From assembly GCF_024584705.1 (NCBI RefSeq), contig NZ_CP097384.1, forward strand, positions 2,728,001 to 2,792,000: a stretch of DNA of 64,000 bases, written 5' to 3'. Within the stretch, counting starts at the first letter, position 1. Each line of letters starts with the position of its first letter. Source of the DNA: Blastopirellula sp. J2-11 (GTDB lineage: Bacteria > Planctomycetota > Planctomycetia > Pirellulales > Pirellulaceae). The position numbers and the translations under genes are program-made. Below are positions 37,269 to 43,615 of this stretch, one piece after another. The notes below the pieces were generated by a model, which saw only the letters and a program-made list of their open reading frames with translations, made no database searches and was not told where the DNA came from.

Positions 37269-38552
37269 TTATCTCCAGTAGAACAGGGCGATCCACAGGA
37301 AATGAAAGACGTAGATCCATCCAAAAGTTGAGAGAGTGATGGTGATCCAAGCGGTCCGCTTCCGTAAGGTGGCGACGGCGACTCCGAAAAATAAAGCGCA
37401 CAGCGGTACGAGCCACAAACGATCCTGCCATGCGAAGAACTGATCCGTGCAGGCCATAAAGACAAAGACGTAGAAGATTAGTCCATGCATGCATAAGACG
37501 TCGATGCGGCGAATTGGTTCATCGTCGCTGCCAGGATTCGGGCGAATCGGCGTGAGCAGCGCATAATAGACGAAGTTTAGTTCCTTATCGATCGGGCGCC
37601 GCCAGCCGGTTTGTTGGGCGTCGTCCCGTTTTTTTAACGAGCGGGCCATCGCCTTTCGATCAGGGAGAAAGGACGCTTCCGGAAAACCGTCGGCCGAAAA
37701 TTCAAATTTCGCGACCTCCGAAAGTTTCTCCAGGCAACGTTCCGTTTTTTCGCGCAGCGGCGTTAATTCTTCGATGGATAGCCGGGGATGGGCGCCGAAG
37801 TAATTACTCGAATCAAGCGTCTCTATCTGCAACAGCGCTTGCATGGGATTGATCAGTACCGAGAAGACTCCTTCGCACGATCTTTCGCCAAGCGAGAACT
37901 TCCAGCGCCAGCCGAGATTACGCCAGTTTTCGAGTTGCGCCTCCATTTCATCTTCTGGCAGAAATTCGGTCGCGATCTGCTCGGCCAACTTCATTCCTGG
38001 CGGGTGACCGCTTTTCTCGGCGATGTGCAAGTCGAGCAAAAAGTTGAGCGACTTGACGGGACTCGGATGCGGCAGAGGCGGGTACGCATGCCGGGGAAAG
38101 ATTCCATTGTCGGCAGAAAGGGGGTCGACGAGATCATCTAAAGGAATCGAGTATTGAACGAGATCGTGCGCTGCGACTCCTTTCTGTTTCCGAAAAAGCG
38201 TATTGGCCGATTGATTGTCGCCTGTCGTCAGCGACCAAGCCGAATTGCAGTTCAACTCACGTGCTTTGACGAGCAAACGTTCTAGCAAAGCAGTCGCCAC
38301 ATCGGCGTCTCGCCAAGCGGCGGTCACCGCGACCTCGCTGATGAAAAACTCCGCCGGCTTATCCGGGTAAGCCAGGTGAACGCCGCTGGCGAAACCGATC
38401 GCAATTCCTTCCACAAACACGACGCAGATATAATGACGAGGATCCGCAAGAAACTGTTCCAGGGAGGTAATCGTCATCGAATTGGCGAACAAATCGCTGG
38501 GCACATTGCGGAGCCGCGGAGCATCTTCGGCAGAGAGAAAACAAAAATCCAC
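37269..38552 (-). CDS. GNAT acetyltransferase fused to a membrane domain
   Basis: 427 residues. Residues about 1-145 are a GNAT fold: FVEGIAIGFASGVHL, then EFFISEVAVTAAWRDADVATALLERLL (strand beta4 and the acetyl-CoA loop, although Q/RxxGxG/A is degraded to RDADVA), then DNQSANTLFRKQKG. The beginning resembles the AAC(3)-I group of aminoglycoside acetyltransferases. Residues 160-340 are of unknown type. The last 75 residues hold about three transmembrane helices (LIFYVFVFMACTDQFF, LWLVPLCALFFGVAVATL, ITLSTFGWIYVFHFLW). The fusion is unusual. It lies 138 bases after the ArsR-led operon and may or may not be co-transcribed. Confidence 0.7.
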   Translation of the reverse strand: MDFCFLSAEDAPRLRNVPSDLFANSMTITSLEQFLADPRHYICVVFVEGIAIGFASGVHLAYPDKPAEFFISEVAVTAAWRDADVATALLERLLVKARELNCNSAWSLTTGDNQSANTLFRKQKGVAAHDLVQYSIPLDDLVDPLSADNGIFPRHAYPPLPHPSPVKSLNFLLDLHIAEKSGHPPGMKLAEQIATEFLPEDEMEAQLENWRNLGWRWKFSLGERSCEGVFSVLINPMQALLQIETLDSSNYFGAHPRLSIEELTPLREKTERCLEKLSEVAKFEFSADGFPEASFLPDRKAMARSLKKRDDAQQTGWRRPIDKELNFVYYALLTPIRPNPGSDDEPIRRIDVLCMHGLIFYVFVFMACTDQFFAWQDRLWLVPLCALFFGVAVATLRKRTAWITITLSTFGWIYVFHFLWIALFYWR

Positions 38553-38690
38553 AAACGGCCTCGGCGATGTTCAGAGGAGAAGAAGCATCGCATTATCGTA
38601 CACGCTGACGGTAATCGGTTCACGCAACAAGGCAGAAAACGCGCACCCAATGCCCGCGTTTTCTGGCTTTGGCTTGCCGAGGGGCGCGAC

Positions 38691-39191
38691 TTAGTCGACC
38701 CGCTTGTAGACCGCCTTCATAAAGGTGAACCACTCGCCATCTTCCCCTTTGACGGCGGAAGAGAAGGTGCGCTCCTGTGGGCTGACCATCTGCAGCGATT
38801 CGCGATAGTCCGACATCCCTTTGCCGTCGAAGCTGGGCCCGTTCGTATTCAGCAACAGCAGCCCTTTCTCCATATCGAGCGAACCCTCATAGATCCACAT
38901 GTGGTTCATCATCGAACCGATCCATGTGCCGACCATCGCTTTTTTCTCCGGCGAGTAGCCGATGGTGATGACGGTGTAGCCGATCCCTCCTTCTGTTTGT
39001 CCTTCTGGGCACGGCATCTCCCCTTCCCCTTCGCCGATCAGCCAATTGGGGCCCAGCATGCGGACGGTTTCTTTACCGGTCGCCTTGGAGGGTGGTTGAT
39101 CGGGCCCCATGAAGGCTTCCGCTGCAAACGTCCATTTGCCCACCAGCTGTTGGAGCCACTCGTGCTCCTTGGTAGTTTGATTCTCGAACAT
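38691..39191 (-). CDS. DUF1579 family protein
   Basis: 166 residues, full family length. The start EHEWLQQLVGKWTFAAEAFMG and the motif NHMWIYEGSLD are typical of DUF1579, a lipocalin/beta-barrel-like family with no established activity, often encoded with SRPBCC proteins. It is cytoplasmic by sequence (no signal peptide). It is the last clearly linked gene of the ArsR-led operon, 51 bases after the SRPBCC gene ending at 39243. Confidence 0.85.
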   Translation of the reverse strand: MFENQTTKEHEWLQQLVGKWTFAAEAFMGPDQPPSKATGKETVRMLGPNWLIGEGEGEMPCPEGQTEGGIGYTVITIGYSPEKKAMVGTWIGSMMNHMWIYEGSLDMEKGLLLLNTNGPSFDGKGMSDYRESLQMVSPQERTFSSAVKGEDGEWFTFMKAVYKRVD

Positions 39192-39242
39192 CGAATTATC
39201 TCCAGCAAAACGAATCCAATGAAACGCGACAGTACTGTAATC

Positions 39243-39824
39243 TTACGAGGGCGTGTCGGCGGCCTCCGGCGAAGTAGGCTTCGCCTCTTCTTCTGCAATC
39301 TTCTTCAAGTTTTCCAACCCTTCGGCAAACTGGGAGCCCACCATGTTGTCCATGCTCATAAACAGGCACATCACTTTGCTGAAGAAGGTGTTCTTGCCAT
39401 CCATTTTCCAGGTGATGGTCGTTTGTCCGGCATTGGGAACGAACGTAAAGACGACATCGTTTTCACAAGCAAAGGGACGAATGAACTTGAGGTCCATGTC
39501 AATCTGCTGGTCCGGAGTCGATTTCACGATCGTCAGCGAGCCTTCGCCGATGTTACTGTCGCCGTCCCAACTATACGAAGCCCCTTCGCCGACCACGTTG
39601 TCGGTATAGGTTTTTCGCATGTCGGGATCCAGTTTTTCCCAGGGAGACCAGGCTTCCCACTTTTTCAAATCATTGATGTGGGAGAATACGATCTCCGGCG
39701 GTGCGCTGATCGGCAACGAACGCTGAACCGTAAATTCGTTCGGCTGCATCATTGCCGCGATCACCACGATCACGACCAAGATGACTAGCGCCACAACAAC
39801 GCCGACGATAATTTTTAGAATCAT
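39243..39824 (-). CDS. membrane-anchored SRPBCC (polyketide cyclase-like) protein
   Basis: 193 residues from the ATG at 39824 (an ATG-less extension to 39860 is unlikely). A transmembrane helix (about 4-26, IIVGVVVALVILVVIVVIAA) is followed by an SRPBCC/START-like domain: VQRSLPISAPPEIVFSHIND, KKWEAWSPWEKLDPDM, SWDGDSNIGEGSLTI. Proteins of this type bind hydrophobic ligands in a deep cavity. It is the only one of the four SRPBCC proteins in the operon with a membrane anchor. The C-terminus is Glu/Pro-rich. Confidence 0.85.
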   Translation of the reverse strand: MILKIIVGVVVALVILVVIVVIAAMMQPNEFTVQRSLPISAPPEIVFSHINDLKKWEAWSPWEKLDPDMRKTYTDNVVGEGASYSWDGDSNIGEGSLTIVKSTPDQQIDMDLKFIRPFACENDVVFTFVPNAGQTTITWKMDGKNTFFSKVMCLFMSMDNMVGSQFAEGLENLKKIAEEEAKPTSPEAADTPS

Positions 39825-39875
39825 AATCTTGCTTCCCCAACAAAGCGACTTAAGACGCACCGGAAATCGGTGCTG

Positions 39876-40367
39876 TTAACATTCGTCGCCGCCAGCAGCG
39901 AACGCCGCAAGACGATCCAGCGTTTGGCTCCAACCTACCGGCATGCCCTCCAGAGCGGCCGATGCGTTATCAGAGAAAATCTCCAGCAGCCTCGCTCGCA
40001 TCAGCAATTCGGTTTTCCCACTTTTTTCATCGAAATCGACGGTTGTATGGACCGTGAACATCGGCTGACCGTCCGATCCCAACGCGGAAGAAGCAAAGCC
40101 GAACCGCGAAGGCGTTTGAACTTCCAACACTGCGCCGTTCATGGGATAAATCGTCCCATCAGGCCCGCACATCTCGATGTAGATCGCGCCGCCTGGGGTA
40201 GGGTCGATTTGGCAAACCGGATTGGTGAAGCCGGTGGGCCCCCACCACTTCGCCAAGTAATCCGAATTGGTCCAAGCGGCGAAAACTGCGGCGCGGGGCG
40301 CATCGATCAGGCACGAAATGACCAGCCCTTCATCCGTTTTCGGATCTGTAGAGAGAATCGTATTCAT
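39876..40367 (-). CDS. SRPBCC (AHSA1-type) protein
   Basis: 163 residues. The AHSA1-like fold is shown by FAAWTNSDYLAKWWGPTGF and DPTPGGAIYIEMCGPDG, with the conserved KWWGP tryptophans. No signal peptide. It lies 13 bases after the cysteine-rich membrane protein gene in the operon. AHSA1-type SRPBCC proteins next to ArsR regulators are common and largely uncharacterised; a ligand-binding or stress role is inferred. Confidence 0.88.
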   Translation of the reverse strand: MNTILSTDPKTDEGLVISCLIDAPRAAVFAAWTNSDYLAKWWGPTGFTNPVCQIDPTPGGAIYIEMCGPDGTIYPMNGAVLEVQTPSRFGFASSALGSDGQPMFTVHTTVDFDEKSGKTELLMRARLLEIFSDNASAALEGMPVGWSQTLDRLAAFAAGGDEC

Positions 40368-40380
40368 CGTCGAAACTCCA

Positions 40381-40683
40381 TTAAGTGCGTGAAGCAGGGT
40401 ATGGGCTCCAGCGAATCGCCAGTTTCGGCAAGCGGCGCAGCGCCAGATAGCCCATGGAAATACAACAACTCGCGATCAGGCCGGTTCGCAAATATCCGGC
40501 CGTCGAAAGCGGAACGCCGATACCAGTAAACAACGCCAGATACGCCGCCAGGCAGATTGGGCACTTGGGGATCAGCGCCAGTACGGCGCTGGGGATGATC
40601 CACGCGATCGCTTCCAGCGTCCGGCTCCGCCATGACGCTCGCGATTTACGACAGCAACAAGACGTAGCGGTTGGAGAGGTCAT
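40381..40683 (-). CDS. small cysteine-rich membrane protein
   Basis: 100 residues from the ATG at 40683, whose ATGA overlaps the stop of the DUF899 gene. It begins with a Ser/Cys stretch (TATSCCCRK) and has two or three transmembrane segments around ALIPKCPICLAAYLALFTGIG and the later LIASCCISMGYLAL. The CPIC pair inside a membrane helix is reminiscent of Mer-type transporters and small redox-active membrane proteins, but I do not identify the family. The stop at 40381 is 13 bases from the next SRPBCC gene. Confidence 0.75.
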   Translation of the reverse strand: MTSPTATSCCCRKSRASWRSRTLEAIAWIIPSAVLALIPKCPICLAAYLALFTGIGVPLSTAGYLRTGLIASCCISMGYLALRRLPKLAIRWSPYPASRT

Positions 40684-41519
40684 CACGCGTTTCCTGATTG
40701 CGAATGACAGCACGCGTGTGCTTTCGACGAATGCTCATACTCGTCGTGCAACCGCCACCACATCGTGCCTTGCCCGTTCAAGTCCGGCATGCCGTCCCAA
40801 CCTTCGCCCCGTCCCATCGGCGTGAGATCAAGATATTGATTGGTCGAAAGCAACGGATCGAGCCCGCGGCCATAAGTGGAATAGGTATGAAACAGGCGAT
40901 CGCCGTCTCGTAGGAATACGCTGCAACCAGGCTGTTCCCCTTCCAGGTGATACGTTTCTTCTTTTTCGTTCAGCGTCGCTTGATCCTGGAAGTTGTAGTT
41001 CACCGGAGCAATCGACGCATCGATGGTGACATGAAAGTCGTAGTTGAAATCGCCGCCATAGGACGAGTACCACGGCACGTTCCAGCCCATCCGCTGTCGG
41101 AATCGCTCGATCTTCGCCAGTGGAGAGCGGGAGATCATCACCAGATGCGTGTCGCGAGCATGCAAGTGTTCAGCCCGCGGCAAGCAGTCGGCGAGATGCG
41201 AACAACCGGGGCAGCCGGCGTCAGTTACCCCCTGCTTTTTCGCGAGCGGCGAATCGTCCGGCTCCAGCATGAAGTGATAGACGATCAATTGCCGTTTTCC
41301 GGCGAACAAGTCGAACAGTTTTGCCGGACCGTCGGGGCCTGTGAACACGTAGTCCTTGTCGATCTCGACCATCGGCAAATCGCGACGCGCCATGTTGACC
41401 GCGTCACGCTGCTTCGTCAGCGCTTTCTCGGCGGCTAGCAGCGTCATGCGCGCTTTAAGCCACTTTTCTCGTGTGACGACTTCAGGCAGAGTGATTTCAG
41501 AAGTTGCAATCGCGTCCAT
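40683..41519 (-). CDS. DUF899 thioredoxin-like protein
   Basis: 278 residues from the ATG at 41519; an open frame extends upstream to 41708 but the family starts with EVVTREKWLKARMTLLAAEKALTKQRD. The fold is thioredoxin-like with a CPGCSHLAD motif (Cys pair about residue 110) and VPWYSSYGGDFNYDF. DUF899 proteins are often encoded with SRPBCC and ArsR genes; the activity is unproven. Overlaps the following cysteine-rich membrane gene by 3-4 bases, hinting at a joint thiol-based function. Confidence 0.9.
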   Translation of the reverse strand: MDAIATSEITLPEVVTREKWLKARMTLLAAEKALTKQRDAVNMARRDLPMVEIDKDYVFTGPDGPAKLFDLFAGKRQLIVYHFMLEPDDSPLAKKQGVTDAGCPGCSHLADCLPRAEHLHARDTHLVMISRSPLAKIERFRQRMGWNVPWYSSYGGDFNYDFHVTIDASIAPVNYNFQDQATLNEKEETYHLEGEQPGCSVFLRDGDRLFHTYSTYGRGLDPLLSTNQYLDLTPMGRGEGWDGMPDLNGQGTMWWRLHDEYEHSSKAHACCHSQSGNA

Positions 41520-41556
41520 TTTCAAACTCCGCAAATGGTTGATAGAAGGATATGAC

Positions 41557-42066
41557 TTATAACGTAGCGAGATACGCTTCCAACTTATCCAGCGTCCCGC
41601 TGAATCGTTGCTGCATGTTCTCGCGCTCCTCCAGAAAGGTCTGTTCCTGTTCCCGGCTAGAGTTGATCGGCGTACTCCAAAATTCGGCCCGAGTTTGCCC
41701 ATCTTCATCGAACAGTTCGATGGCGCTCAGTATTTCTGGGGGCCAAGTTGGACTCAGCGGATGCACGACAAGCTTTTCGTCGGCGTCAGCAAAAGAGAGG
41801 ACGTAAGTCAGCATCCGATTCGGTTCGATCTCGCGATAGACGAACTTGCCGAACATCTCCGGTCCATCCGGCATCTTCATCGCGTAATGAAACACGCCGC
41901 CTGGTTGGAGGTCGAGCTTGACGACCCGCAGCGAAAAACCAAGCGGTCCCCACCACTTTTCTAAATGCTGGGCCTCGGTCCAGGCCTGATAGATCAACTC
42001 GCGGGGAGCGTCGAAAATGCGGGTGAGTTGGAAATCAATTTCAGGATTCGTATTCGCAGCGGACAT
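41557..42066 (-). CDS. SRPBCC (AHSA1-type) protein
   Basis: 169 residues from the ATG at 42066; the frame is open further upstream but the family start is near IDFQLTRIFDAPRELIYQAW. It contains HLEKWWGPLGF and LDLQPGGVFHYAMKMPDGP, close to the paralogue at 39876. No signal peptide. Second SRPBCC gene of the operon, 49 bases after the first and 37 before the DUF899 gene. Confidence 0.9.
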   Translation of the reverse strand: MSAANTNPEIDFQLTRIFDAPRELIYQAWTEAQHLEKWWGPLGFSLRVVKLDLQPGGVFHYAMKMPDGPEMFGKFVYREIEPNRMLTYVLSFADADEKLVVHPLSPTWPPEILSAIELFDEDGQTRAEFWSTPINSSREQEQTFLEERENMQQRFSGTLDKLEAYLATL

Positions 42067-42115
42067 CGATTTACTCCTCAAATTCTCCACCGTTAATATC
42101 GAAGGAAAAATCAAT

Positions 42116-42580
42116 CTAGCGCTGGCTAACCAGCTTTTCGGCCAACTGTTTGATCCGCTGGTTGCGGAAGTCCCAGCCGCCGGTGACCCCGTCAAAGACT
42201 TCTTGCGGAATCTGACCTAGCGCGCGGTGGGTCAACTGGATTGTCGTCATCCCCTTTTCTTCCACCAGACGATATTGCAGATGGTTGGTCGCGGCGAAAG
42301 ACATGAACATCGGTCCGCAGATCTCGAGCAGCTTGGGAGGTTTGATTACTTGCACGTGACCCCAAAAGTGCCCTGCCCCTTCGCCCAAATCGCGAAACCA
42401 ACGTCCGCCGGGCCATGCTTCCAACACCATGGGGAACGGCTGGTCCCCTTCTGGCATTACGCCTGCCGGTCCCATTTCGGTCAGGACCGCTTCAAAGGTG
42501 ATATCGATCGGCGCGGCGATCTCGATCTCTTGGTAGATGTGCAGCACGCGAACAGCTTCTGAATTGTTGACAGCAACCAT
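42116..42580 (-). CDS. SRPBCC-family protein
   Basis: 154 residues. Begins VRVLHIYQEIEIAAPIDITF; contains WPGGRWFRDLGEGAGHFWGH and ATNHLQYRLVEE. It is a divergent SRPBCC member lacking the KWWGP motif of the other two. It starts 3 bases after the ArsR stop, so it is the first structural gene under that regulator and the best candidate for the regulator's immediate partner. Confidence 0.85.
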   Translation of the reverse strand: MVAVNNSEAVRVLHIYQEIEIAAPIDITFEAVLTEMGPAGVMPEGDQPFPMVLEAWPGGRWFRDLGEGAGHFWGHVQVIKPPKLLEICGPMFMSFAATNHLQYRLVEEKGMTTIQLTHRALGQIPQEVFDGVTGGWDFRNQRIKQLAEKLVSQR

Positions 42581-42583
42581 CGA

Positions 42584-42958
42584 TTACAACTCCTTGGAAT
42601 TGGAAGACTTCTTTTTGCCGGCTCGCTCGGCAGCGAGTTTTTCGGCCCGCTGTTTGATTCGAGACAGTTGACCGCTCCAAAATTGCTCGTAGGTTTTGAC
42701 CCAGTCATGCACGGGACGTAACTCCACCGCATTTAATTCGTATAAGCGATGCTGCCCCTGCTTGCGAACCGACACGATGCCGACTTTGCGGAGGACGGCC
42801 AGATGCTTCGACACCGTCGGTTGCGACAGCTGAAGCGCCTCGACCAAATCTCCCACCGCCTGAGGGCGAGTGCTCTGCGCCAACAGGTCAATGATCTGCC
42901 GACGCCGGGGTTCGGCGATCGCATTAAAAACGTCGGTTGTTGTGGCGGCTCTGGGCAT
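42584..42958 (-). CDS. ArsR-family transcriptional regulator
   Basis: 124 residues from the ATG at 42958. A winged helix-turn-helix of the ArsR/SmtB type is clear: FNAIAEPRRRQIIDLLAQ, VGDLVEALQLSQPTVSKHLAVLRKVGIVSVRKQGQHRLYEL, then HDWVKTYEQFW. There is no cysteine in the protein, so thiol-metal sensing as in classical ArsR is unlikely; it belongs to the group paired with SRPBCC proteins. Its own promoter carries a 16-bp palindrome in the spacer, consistent with autorepression. The tail is Lys/Ser-rich. Confidence 0.92.
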   Translation of the reverse strand: MPRAATTTDVFNAIAEPRRRQIIDLLAQSTRPQAVGDLVEALQLSQPTVSKHLAVLRKVGIVSVRKQGQHRLYELNAVELRPVHDWVKTYEQFWSGQLSRIKQRAEKLAAERAGKKKSSNSKEL

Positions 42959-42965
42959 GTCTTTA

Positions 42966-42993
42966 TTTATATTCCCATAAGGGAATGTGTCAA
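42966..42993 (-). promoter_or_regulatory. promoter of the ArsR-led operon with operator in the spacer
   Basis: On the minus strand TTGACA (42993-42988) and TATAAA (42971-42966) are separated by 16 bases. The spacer and the first -10 base form the perfect inverted repeat ATTCCC-TTAT-GGGAAT (42971-42986), ideal for a dimeric repressor that blocks RNA polymerase. The predicted transcription start falls at about 42958-42960, at the ATG itself, implying a leaderless mRNA. Confidence 0.75.
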
Positions 42994-43123
42994 CGGTCGG
43001 CCTGAGAAAAAGTTCAAATCCAACTTGGTGGATGAAAGATGGGATCGCAATTTGGCGTTGCGCTTGTCGCGTTGCCAAACTCACCGGTCTGCGAGTCGTC
43101 CAGCTAATGTCGACATCGCCTGA

Positions 43124-43615
43124 TTAGTTGTCCTCGTCAGATTTTCCGATGACGAGAATCATCGAGAGGATCGCCCCCAAGGTCAGCACCAACGCCAAGG
43201 AAAGAAACGACCAGTGCATCCAAAACAAAATGCGATAAAAACTCGAGTCCGAAAGACTGCCGGCGAAAATCCCTGCGGGCAACGGCAACGTTCGCATCCA
43301 AGCGAGACAGGTCGCAATCAACGCCAACATGCTGGCCAGGAAAAAATCGATACCGGCTCGGTAGATCTGCTTTAAGATGACTTCCGAAGCGAAGGTCGGC
43401 GTGACGCGGCACCAATTGAATGCCAATGCGCTTAAGGACAGGATTACGATGAATGAAGTGAACGAAAGGATTTCATTACGATTCTTCATTTCCGCAAATT
43501 GAGAAATTAGAACCACGCCCGATATCAGCACCAAAAAAGGAGGGACCAGCAAACAGGCGATGCTGCGCAAAGTGCGTTGGGCTGGTGCAAGATATTTGGA
43601 ATCAAATGAGGGCAT
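43124..43615 (-). CDS. four-helix membrane protein of unknown function
   Basis: 163 residues from the ATG at 43615. Four hydrophobic stretches are visible (IACLLVPPFLVLISGVVLIS, LSFTSFIVILSLSALAF, FFLASMLALIATCLAWM, FLSLALVLTLGAILSMILVI). No motif identifies a family. It stands between the ArsR operon and the methyltransferase gene, divergent from the latter. Confidence 0.65.
   Translation of the reverse strand: MPSFDSKYLAPAQRTLRSIACLLVPPFLVLISGVVLISQFAEMKNRNEILSFTSFIVILSLSALAFNWCRVTPTFASEVILKQIYRAGIDFFLASMLALIATCLAWMRTLPLPAGIFAGSLSDSSFYRILFWMHWSFLSLALVLTLGAILSMILVIGKSDEDN

Follow-up and report, generated by a model that had tools for sequence, protein, structure and literature searches.

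An ArsR-led operon of SRPBCC proteins in Blastopirellula sp. J2-11 with a predicted operator and an optional cassette of DUF899 and a cysteine-rich membrane protein

Introduction

The window analysed here is a 64,000-nucleotide (nt) stretch of the planctomycete Blastopirellula sp. J2-11 (contig NZ_CP097384.1, positions 2,728,001 to 2,792,000), whose genome is a single contig of 6.43 Mb (G000). On its minus strand, from 42958 to 38691, lie eight genes encoding, in order, an ArsR-family regulator, SRPa, SRPb, DUF899, MP, SRPc, SRPd and DUF1579, where SRPa to SRPd are SRPBCC proteins and MP is a small membrane protein rich in cysteine. The question raised by this locus is whether these genes are controlled as one unit and, if so, what the unit handles. 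A preliminary description, made from the letters alone, had proposed a single system behind one promoter that senses, binds and detoxifies or reduces a hydrophobic or thiol-reactive compound. Comparison with relatives gives good support to a single ArsR-controlled transcription unit and points to DUF899 and MP as closely paired members of an optional cassette, and a role in handling a hydrophobic toxicant is put forward tentatively. The features of the locus are as follows.

42966..42993, minus strand: predicted promoter with operator, TTGACA-16-TATAAA with a palindrome in the spacer; motif at 26/26 ArsR starts
42971..42986, no strand assigned: operator palindrome ATTCCC-TTAT-GGGAAT, predicted from sequence
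42584..42958, minus strand: ArsR-family repressor, 124 amino acids (aa), no cysteine; HTH_5 57.7 bits, cut-off 22
42116..42580, minus strand: SRPa, soluble SRPBCC protein, partner of ArsR; AHSA1 16.1 bits, under the cut-off of 22.1
41557..42066, minus strand: SRPb, soluble AHSA1 SRPBCC protein; 80.3 bits, cut-off 22.1
40683..41519, minus strand: DUF899 protein, predicted peroxiredoxin-like fold, CPGC, C-terminal CC tail; PF05988 281 bits, cut-off 27
40381..40683, minus strand: MP, membrane protein of 100 aa rich in cysteine, with N-terminal CCC, PKCPIC and CC; alignment A2 of 76 rows
39876..40367, minus strand: SRPc, soluble AHSA1 SRPBCC protein; 80.9 bits, cut-off 22.1
39243..39824, minus strand: SRPd, SRPBCC protein with N-terminal membrane anchor; Polyketide_cyc2 39.6 bits, cut-off 27.4
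38691..39191, minus strand: DUF1579 protein; PF07617 165.3 bits, cut-off 25.2
38633..38664, minus strand: hairpin 3' of DUF1579, possible terminator; fold of -30.9 kcal/mol for a 78-nt stretch

A conserved promoter-operator precedes the ArsR gene

Upstream of the ArsR start lies TTGACA-CATTCCCTTATGGGAA-TATAAA, followed after 7 nt by the ATG. The same promoter-operator layout was found at 26/26 of the close ArsR homologues compiled, in two phyla, Planctomycetota and Acidobacteriota (Edaphobacter modestus, L106, and Acidobacteriaceae KBS 83, L102), with 11 of the 28 motif columns invariant. The compiled rows were limited to ArsR matches of at least 85 bits or to those found by the motif; 20 of the 26 sites were chosen independently of the motif and the other six were found by the motif search itself. 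The 20 are the window itself; 15 named loci and the relatives G018 and G105, each with an ArsR of at least 85 bits; and the genus orthologues retrieved from G080 and G107 by way of SRPa. Among the 29 named loci with an ArsR match, the motif was present in all 15 of the high-scoring group (at least 85 bits) and absent from the other 14, which are more distant. Six of those 14, a Verrucomicrobiota group with ArsR identities of 33-37% (L046, L061, L059, L045, L057 and L040), carry a distinct upstream palindrome of their own, TATATTCAACC..GGTTGAATATA or near it, which is perfect (TATATTCAACCATATGGTTGAATATA) in L046 and L061; no shared site was seen in the remaining eight.

The full motif is rare. 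In its own genome it occurred at a single site at up to 3 mismatches, with none for the reversed control, and when up to 1 mismatch was allowed, 9 of 343 genomes of the phylum contained it, 10 sites in all, the control again returning 0. Eight of these 10 lie directly before an ArsR gene, including those of the window and G018, and one lies before DUF899-MP. The tenth (L181, G188:C11:1216133) is a one-mismatch copy before a small cysteine-bearing membrane gene, and may be a chance occurrence or a further target. The palindrome by itself recurred at 18 places in the genome, two of them exact, and the full promoter motif was used instead. A consensus sigma-70 scan of 38400-43300 called no promoter (shuffle mean 2.4); it also misses the ArsR promoter because its rule demands T as the last base of the -10 box, which here reads TATAAA.

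The distance from the -10 box to the ATG is 5-9 nt across the 26 sites (6 nt in 14 of them, 7 nt in the window), so that the first transcribed base is expected at or near the A of the ATG and the ArsR mRNA is predicted to be leaderless. No purine-rich stretch was seen by eye in the 7 nt separating the -10 box and ATG of ArsR; upstream of the seven downstream genes purine-rich stretches were seen in all cases and were GGAG-like before most starts, also by eye.

The regulator itself is a clear member of its family, passing the curated cut-off for the ArsR winged-helix domain (NF033788, 81.2 bits, cut-off 55) and matching 29 sequences of solved structures, including 3f6v and SmtB. It was correctly described as free of cysteine, so that the ligands of a Cys-type ArsR/SmtB metal sensor are lacking. 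It also matches ten PADLOC models, Csa3 best, read as a shared helix-turn-helix; the other seven of the eight proteins have no PADLOC match at an E value of 0.001, and an anti-phage defence system found no support. The window genome holds a second ArsR-AHSA1 neighbourhood (L036, G000:C1:4042000-4050500), in which the ArsR is 34% identical and this motif is absent. With the promoter-operator conserved before ArsR, the shared promoter that had been proposed is supported, the ArsR-led operon as a single transcription unit is well supported by the comparison of relatives, and regulation by its self-encoded ArsR through one operator is very probable.

Eight genes under one direction of transcription

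All eight compact genes previously outlined are present on the minus strand, with intergenic gaps, in operon order, of 3, 49, 37, -1, 13, 51 and 51 nt. In a comparison with the genus relative G018, differences at the codon positions follow the order 2 < 1 < 3 for every one of them (positions 1, 2 and 3 differ by 0.13, 0.05 and 0.39 in ArsR and by 0.32, 0.16 and 0.60 in MP), and on this ground the eight are judged to be real genes under purifying selection. Pfam families were assigned to seven of the proteins, SRPa under its cut-off, and MP is without a family. The SRPa homologue of L106 passes the AHSA1 cut-off (23.9 against 22.1) and SRPb, SRPc and SRPd lie above the cut-offs of their families, so the earlier count of three soluble and one membrane-anchored SRPBCC protein holds; the anchor of SRPd is one strong N-terminal membrane segment with a hydropathy of 3.74 across residues 5-23. 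Reading of the sequence likewise bore out CPGC in DUF899 and CCC, CPIC and CC in MP.

The hairpin downstream of DUF1579 is weak against shuffles (z -1.39, equalled in 20/200), and no Rfam structured RNA reached its gathering score within 38400-43300. The next downstream gene (window 37269-38552), also present in G018 and G107, encodes a GNAT acetyltransferase with a long C-terminal extension that, by eye, ends in hydrophobic segments.

A two-unit regulon and a modular operon

In G416, a case not sought in advance, ArsR-SRPa-DUF1579 and DUF899-MP are located on different contigs with a copy of the motif before each, an arrangement that speaks for a single ArsR regulon containing both DUF1579 and DUF899-MP. 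A CC tail is present on the DUF899 of this genome, and PKCPAC in its MP. In G253 (L186) a divergent DUF1579 gene lies beside the motif.

Across the four genus genomes compared, the operon lies at one place as judged by its flanking genes, the upstream membrane gene being found in 4/4 and the downstream GNAT gene in 3/4 (undetected in G080). Conservation in relatives, which the preliminary description had proposed as a check, is complete in G018, where the eight genes occur in identical order as in G000, and partial elsewhere. In G080, whose ArsR is 97% identical, the operon reads ArsR-SRPa-SRPb-SRPd-DUF1579 and lacks exactly DUF899-MP-SRPc (window 39825-41545); in G107 four genes, ArsR-SRPa-SRPd-DUF1579, are left, without DUF899-MP-SRPc and SRPb. 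Searches of the whole genomes of G080 and G107 returned no DUF899 and no MP match. The ArsR-SRPa-SRPd-DUF1579 core is kept in all four. Divergence between G000 and G018 is similar for the cassette genes and the remaining genes, or slightly greater for the cassette, and the absence from G080 is therefore read as a probable loss rather than a recent gain in G000. Within the bacterial family the distribution is sporadic, DUF899 occurring in 12/119 genomes and MP in 9/149, two of them doubtful. In L189 and L190, a motif-led ArsR is followed by four consecutive AHSA1-type SRPBCC matches, and the stretch retrieved contains no DUF899. The preliminary description did not anticipate that the set is a mosaic of modules, with four to eight genes within the genus, instead of a fixed system.

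DUF899 and MP are nearly constant partners

A profile of MP located relatives in named genomes; these belong to Bacteroidota, Verrucomicrobiota, Planctomycetota, Acidobacteriota and a few further groups. The named loci are the best 80 of 136 stretches encoding a relative and were found with the pattern PKCPxC[LV]..., so that invariance of the motif among them is by selection. DUF899 occurs at the same locus and on the same strand in 78 of the 80, within 130 nt in 65; of the two loci without it, L092 starts 98 nt from a contig end and L082 has none. The PKCPxC motif was also present in 12/12 MPs reached through DUF899, although six of these came from the first MP alignment, one is at a locus with the MP of L105, and all were picked with the profile built from alignment A2. 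ArsR is present in 29 of the 80 loci, every one of which (29/29) has an SRPBCC match; these locus counts for ArsR and SRPBCC used tblastn with the window proteins, which misses more distant relatives. A Hydrogenedentota locus, L085, is much like the window, with ArsR, DUF899, MP and six SRPBCC matches. Approached from DUF899, MP was present nearby in 8 of the 12 strongest planctomycete genomes and in 0 of eight plasmid loci. For 67 pairs, the distance matrices of MP and DUF899 correlate with r 0.54, a value reached by 0/1000 permutations.

The pairing extends to the cysteine tails. CC or CxC falls within the last 40 residues of DUF899 in 48/67 adjacent pairs and in 0/16 readable proteins without MP, the latter being those with no MP profile match within 1.5 kb on each side (G loci) or 3-4 kb (plasmid loci). 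Where selection did not use the MP pattern, 4/10 readable MP-linked DUF899 proteins have the tail, those of the window and G018 among them. Four loci do not enter this count: L151 and L170, whose frame is broken or misread, and L140 and L150, whose tail was not read. DUF899 copies called non-adjacent have CC in 7/19; some of these copies are likely partners of an MP for which the start call lies too far downstream. The N-terminal cysteine pair of MP was seen in 58/80 calls, some of the others being truncated or possibly wrongly started.

A predicted peroxiredoxin-like fold for DUF899 and a family-less MP

The model of the DUF899 protein has a pLDDT of 87.8 and a pTM of 0.83, its tail being of low confidence. 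Foldseek and VIA-align grouped the model with peroxiredoxins, PrxQ/Bcp first (Z 14.6 over 152-153 residues, rmsd 3.2-3.3), and DUF899 is predicted to have a peroxiredoxin fold with CxxC. Profile searches gave no solved relative by sequence. A published search (PMC3091736) counts one DUF899 sequence among its thioredoxin-clan matches. The protein has no hydrophobic N-terminus and was taken as cytoplasmic. In alignment A3, 66/77 DUF899 rows were kept and 11 left out. At L030, about 1160 nt before MP, a YCII-like domain appears, from reading of the sequence, to be fused to the N-terminus of DUF899.

For MP, alignment A2 kept 76/81 rows, five truncated or near-duplicate rows being left out. The window protein matched no Pfam or NCBIfam family, and a profile search gave no solved relative by sequence. 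Among the 76 relatives, 15 match DUF2162 at E values up to 1 (best 1.7e-4) and one matches DsbD_2 (4.1e-4). The protein is hydrophobic through its whole middle, and its low-confidence model shows three helices, at residues 18-37, 42-53 and 59-91, and PKCP falls in the first of the breaks between them. Identity as a MerF-type mercury carrier found no support, the hhalign probability being 0.2 of 100 against a single MerF sequence.

SRPBCC proteins and recurrent neighbours

ArsR was found at the same locus and strand in 22/22 named loci with SRPa. The SRPa homologue of Edaphobacter modestus (L106:3460-4437) carries, as a fusion, a GyrI-like small-molecule-binding domain that scores 65.5 bits against a cut-off of 26. 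In sequence searches of solved structures, SRPa matched designed leucine-rich repeats only, taken as chance, SRPb had nine matches, mostly labelled uncharacterised, and SRPd matched 2lak only (E 0.045); the sequence search found no solved relative of DUF1579. The hydrophobic ligand that had been suggested thus draws on SRPBCC membership and one natural SRPa-GyrI fusion, and no ligand or substrate can be named.

When 86 loci were compared, a YCII-type cluster recurred in 22 and a sigma-factor cluster in 15, with VOC/glyoxalase, 3-dmu-9_3-mt, DinB and DUF1428 proteins in fewer; cluster families were assigned from one to two representatives scanned per cluster. Together with the GyrI-like fusion and the DUF2182 genes adjoining DUF899 on two plasmids, these neighbours support small-molecule stress, and they fit thiol redox and metal chemistry alike.

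Proposed mechanism and rival explanations

The reading favoured here, tentatively, is an ArsR-repressed, ligand-induced operon that binds a hydrophobic toxicant and in which DUF899-MP serves as a dithiol relay at the membrane. An ArsR dimer would bind the palindrome between the -35 and -10 boxes and block RNA polymerase, repressing ArsR and the operon. Repression would be relieved by an effector sensed without cysteines; the likeliest is a hydrophobic toxic compound that meets ArsR itself or SRPa, its constant partner. The compound would then be bound or processed by SRPa, SRPb and SRPc in the cytoplasm, by the membrane-anchored SRPd and by DUF1579, and the optional DUF899-MP cassette would add thiol chemistry. 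In this scheme DUF899, acting as a CxxC oxidoreductase of peroxiredoxin fold, would use its C-terminal CC tail to exchange electrons with membrane-embedded MP, at the N-terminal CC of MP and at its PKCPxC site. The operator, the regulon, the modularity and the DUF899-MP pairing are supported by comparison; the binding of ArsR to its site, the leaderless mRNA, the class of effector, ligand binding and the direction and nature of the relay are what we infer. It is doubtful, though conceivable, that DUF899-MP is a previously undescribed minimal transmembrane dithiol relay plugged as a cassette into stress regulons, those of ArsR-SRPBCC among them, in at least four phyla. Its suggested composition, which we hold with the same reserve, is a soluble donor of peroxiredoxin fold with a flexible CC tail and a membrane acceptor of about 100 residues with CC and PKCPxC.

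Several observations weigh against the dithiol relay and the operon built around it. The model of MP is poor (pTM 0.35). The peroxiredoxin active-site signature, PxxxTxxC, was not seen on reading around C103/C106 of the window DUF899, and a relaxed T/S/V form of it was present in 4/66 rows of A3. The correlation of distances is no proof of contact, because MP and DUF899 share a history as neighbours. In the pattern-independent set, 6/10 readable MP-linked DUF899 proteins have no tail, and a Fisher test that ignores phylogeny gives a borderline association (p 0.053) between the N-tail of MP and the C-tail of DUF899. The thiol cassette is dispensed with in two of four genus members, and one site of the operator motif, L181, precedes neither ArsR nor DUF899. 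Finally, two Burkholderiales plasmids place DUF899 beside a gene of a copper-chaperone family, which favours metal.

This last point leads to the main rival, a metal relay, in which a thiophilic metal (copper, mercury or a metalloid) would be handed between cytoplasm and membrane by the CC and CPxC sites of DUF899 and MP, with the SRPBCC proteins incidental. Such a role would fit the cysteine tails, which are vicinal or CxC and in several instances have a histidine after them. It would also fit the plasmid arrangement, where in 2 of the 7 annotated loci opened a DUF2182 membrane gene directly follows DUF899 (L135:3971-5426 and L137:3986-5559), the one of the two scanned with Pfam, that of L135, matching the PpoB2 copper chaperone. 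An ArsR devoid of cysteine speaks against metal, as do the lack of likeness between MP and the one MerF sequence compared and the absence of any recognised metal pump or reductase among the neighbour clusters read by eye or the nine proteins scanned, a survey short of full annotation. A metal relay is regarded as rather unlikely. The thiol side of the preliminary description thus stands in part: the predicted peroxiredoxin-like fold of DUF899 and its pairing with MP, along with the cysteine tails, are in its favour, and a metal relay remains beside a redox relay.

A mosaic without a common pathway, in which similar stress genes are gathered under one repressor and their proteins act independently on different compounds, is about equally unlikely. 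It would account for the variable gene number within one genus, for the admixture in other lineages of YCII, VOC, DinB, DUF1428 and a sigma factor with a DUF6596 domain, and for the motif-led ArsR units of L189 and L190 with their several SRPBCC matches; the placement of both G416 units behind the same motif and the very strong pairing of DUF899 with MP count against it. Envelope or lipid homeostasis, with a native lipid or quinone carried by the SRPBCC proteins and the thiol pair repairing the carried molecule or the envelope, could draw on the membrane anchor of SRPd, on the hydrophobic middle of MP and on the lipid carriers known among SRPBCC families, yet the sporadic distribution of DUF899 and MP is unlike that of housekeeping genes, and we consider such a role improbable.

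Comparison with known systems

DUF899, DUF1579 and ArsR-linked SRPBCC proteins are widespread, yet unstudied as far as the open-access literature shows; a search of that literature, which leaves most subscription journals outside, gave no description of the gene set or of DUF899-MP. The ArsR-repressed operon proposed here offers an exact predicted operator, a natural two-unit regulon and natural four-, five- and eight-gene versions for genetics, together with a membrane protein family that is without a Pfam or NCBIfam model and has a nearly constant partner. If true, the DUF899-MP relay would be a very small membrane thiol system.

In DsbD/CcdA and LysE-type proteins, membrane cysteines are partnered with a soluble thioredoxin-like protein. 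The proposed DUF899-MP relay shares this idea, and some MP relatives weakly match DUF2162 or DsbD_2, but MP differs in its length of about 100 residues and, for the window protein, in having no significant family match. With peroxiredoxin Q/Bcp (3gkm, 5imd) DUF899 shares its predicted fold and a first cysteine that lies just before a helix in the model, as is usual in peroxiredoxins, a likeness drawn without superposition of residues; it differs in CxxC in place of PxxxTxxC, in about 47 extra N-terminal residues and in its cysteine tail. The regulator resembles ArsR/SmtB repressors in its winged-helix domain, the palindrome in its own promoter and its place as the leading gene of an operon, and departs from them in having no cysteine and in its predicted leaderless mRNA. 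The closest parallel in gene order is the pairing of ArsR with AHSA1/SRPBCC proteins, which we take to be of the COG3832 type, where the regulator is likewise followed by an SRPBCC gene. Here, that pair is extended to four SRPBCC genes, one of them membrane-anchored, with DUF1579, DUF899-MP and an operator motif of its own.

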